Shown here piece after piece: positions 5,032-22,079 of a stretch of DNA of 47,431 nucleotides; within the stretch, counting starts at the first letter, position 1; each line of letters begins with the position of its first letter. The stretch comes from a virus, in IMG/VR virus record IMGVR_UViG_3300020455_001388, positions 1 to 47,431 of that record; one strand, 5' to 3'. The notes below the pieces were generated by a model. It saw nothing but the letters and a program-made list of their open reading frames with translations, made no database searches and was not told the origin of the DNA. A program made the translations under genes and the position numbers.

Positions 5032-5940
5032 TTAAGCGGCTTCGGAGCTATATAACTCAGTTAGGTTAAACTCAGCATCAATCAGCTTAATAAAGCCGAG
5101 CAGGGTGCTTACATACAGATAAACATCAGCATCAAATCGCACCTCCACTTGGTCTTTCGGAATATCTTCATTTTCTTCAAGAACGCGATCGGCTAACTTA
5201 ATGCGCTTAACTGAACCGTCTTCACAAAGCACTGCGTTAAAAGCCTCGTCATACTCAAACGCTACTTTCTGAACCAGCTTGCCAGCATCTAAGTGCGCTG
5301 ATACTTCGGCACTGTCTAATTCTTGGTTTTTCACGCGCACTATACCGCCTGTATCATCAGTGGCTTTTAACTCTGCTTCTTCCAACAGGCTGATAGTGTC
5401 AGGCGTGGTATCGGTAACCCAGTGCGTTAACTCTGCTTGTATGCTACGGCGAGCGAACGGCATAACTGGAAGTGAGCCCAGGGCTTTACGAACCATTGCA
5501 AGCCAAGCCTCAGCTTGTGAGTCTGAACCAGCGTGAACGATAACCAGGTTACTTTCAGGAATGATTGTGCCGTAGGTATTGGTTCGCTTTGTAAACGCTT
5601 GCGGCAAAAGCTTAGTGACAATCTCTTGCTTTAAATCGGCCTTTGCTTTTTTGCCAACCGGCGCGCCCGTTTCCATTTCAATGCGCTCAACTGCTTCTTC
5701 TAACTCGTCGTTTATCACGCTTGAAGGAAGGATCTTTTCTTCTTTCTGAATGCGAATAGTGAACATGCCTTGGGCAGCGTGTGCAAACAAACCGCCAATG
5801 CAGCGAGCAAAGCCCATTGTCGCTAAGTCGTGAGCACCACAATGGCGAAACTCATGTTCGCCGAACGCCTTTTCAAGCATTTCGCTGTTAAGCGTTAGCG
5901 GTTGAGTCAGGGTATAAATTTTTGCATTTTTAAATAACAT
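5032..5940 (-). CDS. rdgC: Recombination-associated protein RdgC
   Basis: RdgC forms a ring-shaped dimer that encircles double-stranded DNA and limits RecA filament formation; here it is phage-encoded. The 302-residue protein has the family length and its hallmarks: an N-terminal LFKNAKIYTLTQPL segment, a FRHCGAHDLATMGF region, and near residue 155 the VRKALGSLPVMPFA segment. It lies between SSB and an exonuclease in the leftward operon, so it belongs to a phage recombination module. The ribosome-binding site AAGGA overlaps the ssb stop, which implies coupling. It ends SSEAA. Confidence 0.92.
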   Translation of the reverse strand: MLFKNAKIYTLTQPLTLNSEMLEKAFGEHEFRHCGAHDLATMGFARCIGGLFAHAAQGMFTIRIQKEEKILPSSVINDELEEAVERIEMETGAPVGKKAKADLKQEIVTKLLPQAFTKRTNTYGTIIPESNLVIVHAGSDSQAEAWLAMVRKALGSLPVMPFARRSIQAELTHWVTDTTPDTISLLEEAELKATDDTGGIVRVKNQELDSAEVSAHLDAGKLVQKVAFEYDEAFNAVLCEDGSVKRIKLADRVLEENEDIPKDQVEVRFDADVYLYVSTLLGFIKLIDAEFNLTELYSSEAA

Positions 5941-13839: not shown

Positions 13840-14275
13840 TTTTTGGATAGTGGTAGCGTTTGATGCAGCGCTTTAAACGTCCTGATTGTACCGTTCGAGC
13901 CCATATCTCACACGGCAAGGACAATCAGATAAACGATGTATTAAGCCATATGAGGAATGATGCACCTCGGACATGGGCCAGTGACCTGATACTGGTGGCG
14001 GTAAAAGGGTGACACTTGGAGAGACAAGCTGACAAGCCCCTTAATTGGGGCTAAGTCGGTGAAAGAGAGTGCTGAATATCAGTTCTTTAAACCGACAAGA
14101 GGATACGGCAATGAATTTGGCGCTGTAATGGCGCTTACCTTAATCGAGCCTTACGAGAGTAGGGCGTTTTGAGAATAGCTGCTAGGGATGTAACGCAATA
14201 AGCGCCCTAACGGGTAATGGGATTGGTCAGTGTGGTATCGGTCAGCTATTCATCAAAGCGATTTACGGATCTCTA
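13840..14275 (+). ncRNA. Candidate structured RNA, block A
   Basis: There is no credible gene from 13766 to 14286. The block contains a long helix, CGTTTTGA+GAATAGCTG (14165-14181) pairing with CAGCTATTC (14243-14251), one unpaired A (14252), then TCAAAGCG (14253-14260). It is preceded directly by a hairpin CCTTAC-GAGA-GTAGGG (14149-14164) with a GNRA loop. A related but weaker element pairs CTGATTGT (13880-13887) with ACAATCAG (13919-13926), again followed by one A and then TAAACG. A hairpin AGCCCC/GGGGCT sits at 14035-14052. The same helix occurs twice in block B. The GNRA loop suggests that the plus strand is transcribed. Confidence 0.55.
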
Positions 14276-14286
14276 TGGGAGAGAAC

Positions 14287-14466
14287 ATGAAAGAAACTAA
14301 AAGGCAAAGAAAAAAAAGGGTAGGGATGAACGCAGCCACTCAAAGCGCTTTCAAGAAAGGTTATAGACCACCAAGCTACAGGGAATTTATCCAGCCTAAT
14401 GGCTTGGCGGCTTTCAAAAAAACCACACTTGGCGTTCCTTTCGTTAACCCTACTAACTTTAGCTAA
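14287..14466 (+). CDS. Small basic protein, 59 residues
   Basis: A very basic N-terminus (MKETKRQRKKRVGMNAATQS) is followed by a Pro/Tyr-rich part (YRPPSYREF) and a neutral C-terminus. GGGAGAG precedes the ATG at 14287; the frame is open further upstream but only through the structured RNA. It lies between the RNA block A and the Acb2-like gene. Nucleic-acid binding is plausible from charge alone. Confidence 0.6.
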   Translation: MKETKRQRKKRVGMNAATQSAFKKGYRPPSYREFIQPNGLAAFKKTTLGVPFVNPTNFS

Positions 14467-14486
14467 CGGAATTAAGAAGACTCCTT

Positions 14487-14666
14487 ATGAAAATGAAATA
14501 TTTCGATTACGAACATCTACCCGAGAAGCTTCAGGCAGTAAGTAAGCCTATTGGGGATGTAGCCAGACAAATGAATGAAAGCCTTCCTGACGGTGCAGAG
14601 AAAAGCGCTGGGCTTAGAAAACTTCTTGAAGCTAAAGATTGCTTAGTTAGAGCCGCGCTTGAATAG
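14487..14666 (+). CDS. Acb2/Tad1 hairpin-domain protein, candidate anti-defence sponge
   Basis: The 59-residue protein contains YFDYEHLPEKLQAVSKPIGD and then DGAEKSAGLRKLLEAKDC, which fits the helical-hairpin pattern of the Acb2/Tad1 superfamily (a YHPP-like start, then a xxREKSLAxTKLEEAxxWA-like second helix). Members bind cyclic di- and trinucleotides or cyclic ADP-ribose signals and block CBASS and Thoeris defence in the host cytoplasm. I made the assignment by eye from motif order; the nucleotide-binding residues cannot be confirmed. It has a weak site GAAGAC before the ATG and a terminator right after it. Confidence 0.65.
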   Translation: MKMKYFDYEHLPEKLQAVSKPIGDVARQMNESLPDGAEKSAGLRKLLEAKDCLVRAALE

Positions 14667-14692
14667 CAATATTTCAGAGTCATTAACCCTAA

Positions 14693-14718
14693 AAACCCTG
14701 CCTAGTCGCGGGTTTTTT
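14693..14718 (+). terminator. Intrinsic terminator after the Acb2-like gene
   Basis: CCC-GC/GC-GGG stem with loop CTAGTC and one bulged T, followed by TTTTTT. On the opposite strand the stem is also followed by a T run, so it may be bidirectional. It separates the Acb2-like gene from RNA block B. Confidence 0.7.
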
Positions 14719-14739
14719 GGGTGAGAAGTTTCGTTGTTT

Positions 14740-15262
14740 ATTAGCGGCTGTTTAAGTTTAAAAACATCTGCAAACGATGACATATATCTGGCGGCAGTAG
14801 CTTAACTGCTAAACACCGTCCAAGGGGTGTGTCTCCCTTGTCACCGAAAAGACCGTGGTTGCCCTCACCACGATTAAGGAACGAGGGCGTTTTGAGTGTG
14901 GTTTTGTGGGAAGTGTGCAGAGCCACATATCAAAGTGTTTGTAACTCATACCATCGAGAAGAGTAGGGCTTTGTAATTCCGCTAGTTACGCTTGTCACTA
15001 CTAGCGGTAGCCCCTACAAGCTAGGTTCGCTGACCGAATTTCAAGCGCTCCGTTGCAAAAAGGTCAGGTTGGTACTGGCATGACGCAACGCCGGAAGAGG
15101 GTAACCGGCACGTTTTGAGAAGGCTTGTTGATTTTTCGTAGTCGCTATTTTGCATTCATAGAGTGCATCAGGGAAACAACAAGCTTTCATCAAAGCGTTA
15201 TGCGGATTGCACATTTGCGGTCGGCGCTTTCGACTAGCCCACGTTAAGGGCTAAAACGAAAA
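14740..15262 (+). ncRNA. Candidate structured RNA, block B
   Basis: No credible gene exists from 14667 to 15321. Two copies of the block A helix occur. Copy 2 pairs CGTTTTGA+GTGTGG (14888-14901) with CCACAT (14923-14928), one unpaired A, TCAAAGTG (14930-14937). Copy 3 pairs CGTTTTGA+GAAGGCTTGTTG (15111-15130) with CAACAAGCTTTC (15177-15188), one A, TCAAAGCG (15190-15197). Between them CCGCTAGT pairs with ACTAGCGG inside GTAGGGC/GCCCCTAC (14963-15017). GCCCTC (14861-14866), in the loop of CGTGG/CCACG, can pair with GAGGGC (14883-14888), a possible pseudoknot. Further hairpins include GGCAGT/ACTGCT and ACACC/GGGTGT. Confidence 0.6.
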
Positions 15263-15298
15263 AAACCCCGCTAGCCGTGGAAAGCAAATGCGGGGTTT
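15263..15298. terminator. Nine-pair hairpin at the end of RNA block B
   Basis: AAACCCCGC (15263-15271) pairs perfectly with GCGGGGTTT (15290-15298) across an 18-base loop. A T run follows only on the minus strand, where it would be a good terminator. On the plus strand it is more likely a boundary or processing structure. Confidence 0.5.
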
Positions 15299-15321
15299 AG
15301 ATGATAAACATCGAGGTAATT

Positions 15322-15378
15322 ATGAGCGAATACAAAAAATATAGCAAGCCAGGATTTAGGGGGGCACATGAGCATTAA
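15322..15378 (+). CDS. Possible leader peptide, 18 residues
   Basis: A frame reading MSEYKKYSKPGFRGAHEH with GAGG before the ATG overlaps the first codons of the initiator gene in another frame. It could couple or limit initiator translation. It is short and may be chance. Confidence 0.3.
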   Translation: MSEYKKYSKPGFRGAHEH

Positions 15379-16084
15379 AATGATGTTTTCAGCTATGCAG
15401 GTTAAAGCTGGAAGCCCAACTACTAAAATGGTTTTAATAAAGCTTGCCGACAACGCGAACGACAAGGGAGAGTGCTGGCCAAGCTATGACAATATTGCTG
15501 AAGTTTGTGAAATTTCTCGCCGTAGCGCTATCAATCATATCGATAAACTTGTCAAGAAAGGCTTGGTGCGCAAGGAAGAAAGGAAGGGGCCAAAAGGTAA
15601 TTCGAGTAACGTATATTACTTGACGCTTGGTGGTGAAAAATCTGCACCCCTACCTAGTGAAAACAATTCACCAGATGGTGAAAAATCTGCACCACCCCCT
15701 AGTGAAAAATCTGCACCACCCCCTAGTGAAAAATCTGCACCCGAATCTGTCAGTATAGAACCAGTCATTACTGAATCTGTCATTGAAACAATAAATCGCG
15801 AAAAGATTATTTCCCTTGAAAGCCTAAATGCTTTCGTTAGCTACAGAAAAAAAATCAAAAAGCCAATGACTACTCATGCGGTTGAGTTGCTTGTTGCAAA
15901 ACTTGGTGGTCTTCGTGTTGACGGACACTCACCGCAAGAGCTAATCAACGAAGCCATCATGAACGGCTGGCAATCGGTTTACCCAAAAACCAACCCTAAG
16001 CCGAATGGCACATTCCAAAGCCCCCAAGAACGCATACGCGAAGAAAACATTCGCGTCATGTCTAAATGGGCAAACAAGGAGTAA
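15368..16084 (+). CDS. Replication initiator, lambda O-like
   Basis: The 238-residue protein has an N-terminal winged helix (about residues 15-90, with WPSYDNIAEVCEISRRSAIN and a wing ending NVYYL), typical of phage replication proteins that bind origin iterons. Residues 95-125 are a low-complexity Pro/Ser/Lys linker made of EKSAPPPS repeats, and the C-terminal part (140-238) would contact the helicase loader. The repeats in the linker DNA are the likely iterons, so gene and origin overlap as in lambda O. It is followed four bases later by the P-like gene. Confidence 0.85.
   Translation: MSIKMMFSAMQVKAGSPTTKMVLIKLADNANDKGECWPSYDNIAEVCEISRRSAINHIDKLVKKGLVRKEERKGPKGNSSNVYYLTLGGEKSAPLPSENNSPDGEKSAPPPSEKSAPPPSEKSAPESVSIEPVITESVIETINREKIISLESLNAFVSYRKKIKKPMTTHAVELLVAKLGGLRVDGHSPQELINEAIMNGWQSVYPKTNPKPNGTFQSPQERIREENIRVMSKWANKE
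15632..15741 (+). repeat. Iteron array, probable replication origin
   Basis: The 17-base unit RGTGAAAAATCTGCACC occurs at 15632-15648, 15677-15693, 15701-15717 and 15725-15741, with a degenerate copy at 15656-15672. Spacings are 24, 21, 24 and 24 bases. An AT-rich stretch follows from about 15790. The layout matches lambda ori, which has four iterons inside O followed by an AT-rich region. Confidence 0.75.
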
Positions 16085-20692: not shown

Positions 20693-20859
20693 TCACGCCC
20701 TCAGATACATGGTGCTACGTTCACTTTTCGGATGGCAGCGTTTTAGGCTGGCCTTCATCGATGTTTGGCAACCCAATACACGAAACCACTATCAATCATA
20801 TGATTGAACAAAGCGATCGAATCCTTGTGCGCGAGGAACTTATGGGTGATGAGAAATGA
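20689..20859 (+). CDS. Small hypothetical protein, 56 residues
   Basis: The ATG overlaps the upstream TGA and the TGA overlaps the ATG of the second integrase. The product MITPSDTWCYVHFSDGSVLG continues to an acidic tail (LVREELMGDEK). No family is recognised. The double overlap supports it. Confidence 0.6.
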   Translation: MITPSDTWCYVHFSDGSVLGWPSSMFGNPIHETTINHMIEQSDRILVREELMGDEK

Positions 20860-22079
20860 AATACCTCGCCCTTAACCTTAACGATACAGCAATCAAAAAA
20901 CACGCATCTGATGCTGTGGTGGGTGAGCTACGCGATGTAAGAAACCCAATATGTTTACGCTTCCACAAAAGCCGTGAACGGGCAACGTGGTGCTACTATC
21001 GCAATGAAGGTAATTCAAAAAACCGTACTCGTTTAGGTTACTGGCCCACACTAAAAACCAAAGATGTGCTTGCTATGTTGCCCGGTGTTATTGAAAAGCT
21101 TCATCATGGTAAAGAGGTACAAAGCAGTAAATTTAAAACCGTGGGTGAAATGCTCAATTGGTATTCATCACGCACAAGCAAAGAGAACATAAAAAGTCAG
21201 AGCCGCCGCAAAGGTGTGTTATCAGCTATTGATAAGCACTTATTACCCCGACTTGAGCTTATAAATATCAGCGAAGTCAGCAAGGCCATCATCGATGATA
21301 AGCTAGTTTTACCCCTGCAGAATGCCAACCTAAAGCCCTCAACCATTCGCCAATACTTCGCCATATTAAAGAGGGTGTTTGCCAGTGCGAGAGAGTTGGA
21401 GCTAATTTCGGTAAACCCCATGGCGGGTATGAAGTTTCGTGATCACGTGCAACGCAGAATTGAGCCCAAGCAAGGCAGATTGCTGGTAGATGATGCACCG
21501 GCATTAATACAGCAAATTAATATAGCCCCAGCCACTACTAGAATGCTTTTATTGTTCATGTTGCTGTTTGGTACTCGTATCGGTGAAACCCGCCAACTAA
21601 GATGGCGCCACATCGATTTGAACAGCGGCCAGTTAATCATACCTGAAACCATAACCAAGACTGCAGCGGTTCATATACTGCCAATCACTTACCAGGCTAA
21701 ACGGTTATTGCTGGAATATAAGCAGCAGTGCACAGGTGAATACTTGTTTGGCGGTAAAGAACCCATGAGTGCCAGCGCAGCGGATAAGGCAGTAAGGGAA
21801 GCATCAAAGCGTAAGTTCTCAGCGCATGACATAAGAAAGCTTGCTCGAAGTGTATGGGCAACGGTAGGCATTGATTACTGGGTAGCAGAGCGATTACTTA
21901 ACCATAAGCAAAAGGGGCTTGATTTGGTTTACATCAAAGCTGACTCGATGGACGTTAAACGCAAGGCATTAGAGCAATATCATGAGTGGTTATTTCGTGA
22001 TGTGAAACCCGTCCTTATCCCGTCCGTGGAGATTTCAGGTAAAGACGAAAACAATAATGTATTCAATAAGGTGGCGTAA
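20856..22079 (+). CDS. Second tyrosine recombinase
   Basis: The 407-residue protein has an N-terminal arm-binding domain with FHKSRERATWCYYR, a SAM-like core-binding domain (about 105-200) and a full catalytic domain: Arg in GTRIGETRQLRW, HxxR in SAHDIRKLAR, His in LLNHKQKG and Tyr in VYIKAD. All catalytic residues are present, unlike the HxxK variant in the first integrase. It is translationally coupled to the nin-like operon and has no attachment repeats around it. It would be made during lytic growth, so it may resolve phage genomes or serve another recombination, or be a captured integrase. Confidence 0.88.
   Translation: MKYLALNLNDTAIKKHASDAVVGELRDVRNPICLRFHKSRERATWCYYRNEGNSKNRTRLGYWPTLKTKDVLAMLPGVIEKLHHGKEVQSSKFKTVGEMLNWYSSRTSKENIKSQSRRKGVLSAIDKHLLPRLELINISEVSKAIIDDKLVLPLQNANLKPSTIRQYFAILKRVFASARELELISVNPMAGMKFRDHVQRRIEPKQGRLLVDDAPALIQQINIAPATTRMLLLFMLLFGTRIGETRQLRWRHIDLNSGQLIIPETITKTAAVHILPITYQAKRLLLEYKQQCTGEYLFGGKEPMSASAADKAVREASKRKFSAHDIRKLARSVWATVGIDYWVAERLLNHKQKGLDLVYIKADSMDVKRKALEQYHEWLFRDVKPVLIPSVEISGKDENNNVFNKVA

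Follow-up and report, generated by a model that had tools for sequence, protein, structure and literature searches.

The gene-free region at positions 13850 to about 15299 of the window (the whole 47,431-nucleotide stretch analysed here, IMG/VR virus record IMGVR_UViG_3300020455_001388) encodes, judging from its folding and covariation, a genuine structured RNA on the plus strand. This RNA is put together as a mosaic from exchangeable modules, with small genes inserted among them. One module is in all probability homologous to the mRNA-like part of tmRNA and has an intact tag frame. Both features had been overlooked by a previous sequence-only reading of the same DNA. Our leading explanation, to which we give a probability of roughly 55%, is that the phage encodes a mosaic RNA around a tmRNA-like core and that this RNA most likely works by mimicking tmRNA in the host's ribosome rescue.

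The window derives from a temperate phage with an integrase beside a tRNA-Leu gene, a CI-type repressor, a CII-type regulator and an O-like replication protein, together with a lambda-type portal and a GpA terminase. It also contains an RdgC homologue (5032-5940) and a second integrase-family protein (20856-22079) distinct from the one beside tRNA-Leu. The predicted RNA extends from a 5' domain (13850-14028) to a 3' hairpin that ends near 15299, just upstream of the O-like replication initiation gene (15368-16084, plus strand), and all features of this region described below lie on the plus strand. Two observations lead us to this strand: the block at 14720-15305 has a minimum free energy z score of -5.8 on the plus strand versus -2.7 on the minus strand, and a U-G wobble in the constant helix of the unit hairpins, kept in 20 of 20 units, would become A-C on the opposite strand. 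The block at 13850-14285 has a folding z score of -3.6 on the plus strand.

The three long helices described by the sequence-only reading are exact in their coordinates, with CGTTTTGA at 14165, 14888 and 15111 pairing with TCAAAGCG or TCAAAGTG at 14253, 14930 and 15190. They close unit hairpins 1 (14165-14260), 2 (14888-14937) and 3 (15111-15197), in which a constant base (CGTTTTGA/TCAAAGCG in unit 1) encloses a variable interior. The distal stems do, as had been proposed, differ in sequence and still pair, forming inner stems of 9, 13 and 12 bp with one bulged A each. Three such units in the region compare with 0 in 2,000 dinucleotide shuffles of it and with none in 200 shuffled copies of the whole window. 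An alignment of 20 units, which took only those with at least 4 inner pairs, has 98.9% of its cells paired and two-sided changes in 42 cells against a shuffled mean of 14, and sliding the partner strand destroys the pairing signal. Its unselected counterpart comprises 29 distinct units from related phages gathered without requiring inner pairing; here 4 or more of the first 6 inner pairs are retained in 28, the remaining one (L145) re-pairs after one mismatch, the inner stem is usually 8-16 bp long, and a bulged A or its equivalent is present in 24. Pairing has thus been retained through many two-sided changes in the hairpins of related phages, which bears out the earlier claim of selection for RNA structure. 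An identical variable hairpin was found behind differing left flanks, and several modules offer an alternative pairing between a unit's 3' arm and the beginning of the module that follows it (AAAGCG with CGCTTT); AAAGCG of unit 3 has this option within modules h and F3 at 15198-15262.

The ends of the RNA are fixed. The 5' domain (module A) begins with the hairpin CCTGATTGTACC..GGACAATCAG, continues through further helices and closes with a core hairpin, and its alignments A1 and A2 show many two-sided changes. The covariance model built from it (R1) scores 151.6 bits at 13878-14027 of the window and 26.9 bits at a divergent copy in a further genome of the sampled Alteromonas family (L156), where it likewise stands between small phage genes and a replication gene. 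What had been suspected to be a fourth, weaker copy of the helix at 13855-13933 is no copy at all and instead forms part of this separate, independently conserved domain. Within this domain, AAACGATG/AAACGAAGCATAA was considered as a possible tag and discarded as inconsistent between phages. The core motif, GGTGACA-CTTG-GAGAGA-CAAG (14008-14028), has a stem that covaries (GCTG/CAGC elsewhere) and a constant loop. The form GGTGACA-GCTG-GAGAGA-CAGC recurs in phage contigs that are unrelated apart from it (L157, L158 and L160-L165, and also L156), directly after a tRNA in L160 and just upstream of the terminase genes in L161; core-pattern matches in L159 and L167/L168 were set aside as chance, judged by the surrounding sequence. 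At the other end, the terminator-like hairpin AAACCCCGC..GCGGGGTTT (15263-15299), whose loop is too long for the terminator scan, is found in nearly every relative whose RNA is complete.

Relatives were gathered by pattern and protein searches, yielding 29 distinct loci of the same type from Alteromonas phage P24, marine viral contigs, and Alteromonas and Thalassotalea genomes. The 5' domain is common to all 29, and between it and the 3' hairpin about 12 interchangeable RNA modules are combined into at least 20 architectures, the shortest RNA measuring about 385 nt with no gene inside (L100). On the mosaic map, the slot at 14029-14164, filled in the window by modules Q (GACAAGCCCCTT..) and Y (TGGCGCTGTAATGGCGC..), holds a unit hairpin in most relatives, and module X (14938-15110), which includes the hairpin GCCGG..CCGGC at 15090-15109, recurs in other contexts (L061, L081, L139, L144, L149). 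Matches of the phiPMW type to 14030-14068 are short terminator-like stem-loops. The RNA is a clear case of modular large-RNA evolution, in which whole helices swap and the closing stems stay constant.

The small genes lodged between modules are a 59-aa ORF and a 109-aa ORF with a signal-like N-terminus. The window contains the former (MKMKYFDYEHLPEKLQAVS.., 14487-14666; PHROG 1761/5120, function unknown) as optional cargo, as well as a small basic ORF of 59 aa without a family match (14287-14466). The cargo ORF also occurs between RNA modules at L009, L143 and L153, and its DNA covers 151 of 168 phage matches at 60-80% identity. We take it to resemble the anti-CBASS protein Acb2; searches of NCBIfam, Pfam and PDB gave no match, and this identity stays a lead only. 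An alternative cargo of 106-111 aa, with the signal-like start MRKILVIGAAIGLAAAL and the conserved end THEVGWRF, was seen at L061, L075, L081, L139, L140, L144, L146 and L149 and likewise has no family match. A terminator scan places a terminator-like hairpin 3' of the cargo gene (14697-14717) and directly upstream of the tag module, so the tag module may not share one uninterrupted transcript with the modules before it, and the RNA may be two transcripts rather than one.

The tmRNA-like module (14727-14888) consists of an upstream region, a tag, a post-tag hairpin and a PK2-like pseudoknot. The tag reading frame came to light through weak tmRNA matches in three relatives (L170, L173, L175), the first of which matches Rfam tmRNA_permuted at E 3e-4 and beta_tmRNA at E 1.4e-3. 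In the window it reads ANDDIYLAAVA* (14770-14805; GCA AAC GAT GAC ATA TAT CTG GCG GCA GTA GCT TAA), starting from a GCA resume codon with an A at -4 (14766), and the number of tags expected in a shuffled window is 0.0. The post-tag hairpin CAAGGG/CCCTTG (14821-14840) covaries between phages (alignment A3, columns 119-123/135-139). Directly after it stands the pseudoknot-capable hairpin that the sequence-only reading had correctly placed upstream of a helix: in the element at 14854-14888, a CGTGG/CCACG hairpin presents the loop GCCCTC (14861-14866) for pairing with GAGGGC (14883-14888), a position that corresponds to PK2. Comparable pairing is clear by eye in the window, in P1 and in Serratia phage 3M (CCCCGT/ACGGGG in the latter two).

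A direct pairwise alignment of the window tag module with the host tmRNA does not rise above shuffles, nor does that of any other module, including A, X, F1, F2, S, G, Z and F4, some of which look tmRNA-like by eye and were dismissed as pieces of the host tmRNA. Homology therefore rests on intermediates, on models and on the tag itself. A covariance model (R2) whose 15 input tag modules all come from enterobacterial phages, with no Alteromonas sequence among them, matches the window at 14727-14853 with 56.3 bits and E 3.9e-10, E-values of the models built here being rough. R2 also matches other Alteromonas-type RNAs and the divergent L156 copy (35 bits) and, weakly, the host's genuine ssrA (L224; 22.3 bits, E 0.01), and its sole matches over the whole genomes G001 and G041 are the prophage copies. 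Rfam beta_tmRNA matches weakly at 14802-14854 of the window, and in host genome G001 a match to positions 82-140 of RF00023, scoring 9.3 bits, reaches the prophage tag. We regard it as highly probable that the tag module is a true homologue of the mRNA-like part of tmRNA.

The tag is conserved across phages. A pattern that asked for neither a stop nor particular upstream bases retrieved 42 distinct tag contexts, and every one of them stops in frame at codon 11 or 12 (41 TAA, 1 TAG) and has an A at -4 of the resume codon, the position that in E. coli tmRNA (A86) is essential (PMC2481249). One tag type is written with different codons, giving ANDEQFLAVA, ANDNTFLAVA, ANDNVFLAVA, ANDDLMMVAA (P1) and ANDDLMMEAAA (L156). 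Equivalent frames are present in L024, L156, an E. coli N4-like phage, Serratia and Klebsiella Ackermannviridae and many more viral contigs, and one Felix-O1-like relative has a tag that ends in TGA. The phage tags share the form of the host ssrA tags, which in three bacterial genomes are ANDETYALAA, ANDENYALAA and ANDETFALAA, but mostly end in LAVA, AAVA or LMAA as opposed to the host ALAA. Intact frames in 42 of 42 contexts, and compensatory changes in the unit stems, the 5' domain and the post-tag hairpin, speak against the region being decaying junk from captured tmRNA and tRNA fragments. The lack of detectable direct similarity to host tmRNA and the interruption of the RNA by cargo genes would fit such decay, which the covariation already contradicts and which we hold to be scarcely credible.

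The tag module reaches well beyond the Alteromonas-type phages. A 171-nt tag-module query matched 772 of 50,697 phage records (~1.5%), mostly where no feature is annotated, so that about 1.5% of the phage genomes on deposit, P1 and Felix-O1 relatives included, appear to contain the tag domain without annotation; a literature search found no paper naming these tags or describing such RNAs. Carriers comprise P1, Felix-O1-like, Ackermann- and N4-like phages and E. coli prophages, and a longer tag-region query matched 138 of 5,426 E. coli genomes. In P1 (L233, NC_005856, about 68,902-69,060) the match spans only the upstream part of the module, and the unannotated tag ANDDLMMVAA* is readable directly after it, with a pre-tag region and a PK2-like element; its neighbours there, upstream of ban, are tRNA genes and a dicF-like region. 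In the one E. coli genome examined, Z1323CEC0018, a lambdoid prophage (L235, 2846-3715) holds the module in an 870-nt gene-free gap from antiterminator Q to holin, with the tag ANEEMYLAVA*, constant-base hairpins and an element resembling the tRNA-like domain (TLD) of tmRNA. These unrelated neighbours bear on whether the region serves the downstream O-like gene in cis, as a leader or antitermination structure, or at the DNA level, as a recombination or origin element. Its position before the replication gene is indeed fixed in the Alteromonas-type phages, and the repeated constant base stems could supply homology for module exchange, but the module adjoins unrelated genes in P1, Felix-O1-like and Ackermann phages and E. 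coli prophages, and the U-G wobble and two-sided changes indicate RNA; we consider such a role very unlikely.

Other recurrent elements were noted in these phages. A second type of hairpin with constant base and variable interior (CACAACAGGTAAGAGCATT..AGTGCTCTTTCCGTTGTG) occurs in L234, L235, L170 and P1, sometimes in tandem after the tag, and a long conserved hairpin, (A)TCAAAGAGCGCGGGCGTGAAAAACTG..CGCTCTTTTTGAT, is present in Acinetobacter, Yersinia and cyanobacterial phages (L157, L163, L169, L171, L174). In Klebsiella phage P01 (L175, 3506-3720) the Rfam STnc100 sRNA falls within the gene-free zone of the tag module and is possibly a further module of such RNAs.

A complete tmRNA requires a chargeable tRNA-like domain. 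In the window RNA neither Rfam nor ARAGORN detected a tRNA or a tmRNA TLD (acceptor stem, T-arm, CCA), and no SmpB gene was found in the window record. Enterobacterial relatives carry a divergent TLD-like element about 180-350 nt 3' of the tag, with an acceptor-like stem of 6-8 bp, a D-arm-like AATGCGCAGGCTGATGCGC and a T-arm-like GCCGGAGATCAGYACCGGC (L157, L170, L175, L193, L235, L115), and its stem covaries (TTGTGGTG/CACCACAA, TTGCGGTG/CACCGCAA, TTGAGGG/CCCTCAA). These elements show T-A or G-C in place of the G3-U70 alanine signal in 9 of 9 cases, and no CCA end was seen in them; no counterpart of this pair could be located in the window. The main rival to a mimic, ranked second, is that the RNA is an autonomous phage tmRNA, in which a highly diverged and possibly permuted TLD elsewhere in the RNA is charged and the RNA itself tags stalled peptides. 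In keeping with this, the resume codon, the A at -4, the frame of the tag and its stop have all been conserved, the covarying element of the relatives offers a candidate domain, a TLD could be too diverged for Rfam or ARAGORN, and functional phage tmRNAs exist elsewhere (PMC4131195). Even so, the missing alanine signal and CCA end, together with the results for the window itself, count against it, as does the distribution of the tag module: among the 29 Alteromonas-type loci only about 8 possess it, 6 of them directly and a further 2 on the contigs that bear L140 and L146, and most of these relatives lack it. We therefore judge an autonomous tmRNA unlikely, if still worth weighing, and favour a mimic because no chargeable TLD and no SmpB were found and because the module is absent from many relatives; its presence in so few loci also implies that the tag is not the whole function of the RNA.

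As a tmRNA mimic, the RNA would be produced as an early rightward transcript that folds into the fixed 5' domain, then the exchangeable helices one after another and finally the 3' hairpin, one module in the window phage being the putative homologue of the tmRNA mRNA-like domain. During infection it may then engage the host ribosome-rescue machinery (ribosome, S1, SmpB or a host tmRNA half), with the outcome that host trans-translation is diverted or outcompeted, or that a phage-chosen tag is placed. This mechanism itself we advance tentatively, as somewhat less probable than not. If active, it would let phages write their own protein-degradation tags, or block those of the host, during infection. 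More speculative again is the thought that these RNAs form an undescribed superfamily of mosaic RNAs in many temperate and lytic phages of Gammaproteobacteria, in which hairpin cassettes are swapped on constant base stems, a tmRNA tag domain is carried with no canonical tRNA domain, host ribosome rescue is reprogrammed, and anti-defence-type genes are plugged in between modules.

Among known RNAs, GOLLD, ROOL and OLE are likewise large and structured, the first two occurring in phages near tRNAs. The sequence-only reading had seen in the region a large structured phage RNA, either a diverged relative of RNAs such as GOLLD and ROOL or a new class; the former part stands, the RNA being selected, kept and covarying in relatives, whereas membership of those families, or of HEARO, is unsupported, as no Rfam family reaches E = 5 in the region. 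GOLLD, ROOL and OLE models gave no match at E <= 5 in the window or at E <= 10 in the region alone, the motifs differ, and the exchangeable-module mosaic sets the present RNA apart; in the related loci the only Rfam families are tRNAs, one STnc100 match and tmRNA-type matches. A structural RNA of the GOLLD/ROOL kind (a scaffold or cage, perhaps ribosome-binding), with the tag module as one interchangeable surface part, would agree with the fixed ends, the many interchangeable helices and the optional tag, with relatives that occupy gene-free zones of 1-3 kb containing tRNAs, and with GOLLD and ROOL being phage RNAs near tRNA islands, GOLLD reportedly pulling down ribosomes (PMC12286853). It leaves the conserved reading frame and the A at -4 unexplained, and the RNA matches GOLLD, ROOL and OLE neither in sequence nor in structure; we think this reading improbable. 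The abundant ncRNA of about 800 nt in phage ICP1 (PMC7567579) is, like the RNA predicted here, long, gene-free and closed by a terminator-like hairpin, but no tag, unit arms or core GGTGACA-GAGAGA motif was found in it; sharing no motif, it was rejected as a homologue that could lend evidence of expression.

Phages are known to carry parts of tmRNA, as phage G and the mycobacteriophages Bxz1, Wildcat and others do, and DS6A has a TLD-only type described as a possible inhibitor that titrates SmpB (PMC4131195). Our RNA belongs to different phage groups, and where those phages carry a whole ssrA or the TLD only, it is the opposite half, the tag domain, that is conserved here. Compared with tmRNA proper (RF00023, RF01850 beta_tmRNA, RF04321 tmRNA_permuted), the phage RNA has no detected canonical tRNA-like domain, embeds its tag module among other modules, scores below all Rfam cut-offs and is not called by ARAGORN. 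It nevertheless shares with tmRNA the GCA resume codon, the A at -4, and a short AND..LAVA/LMAA tag and stop, followed by a hairpin and then, as judged by eye, a PK2-like pseudoknot.
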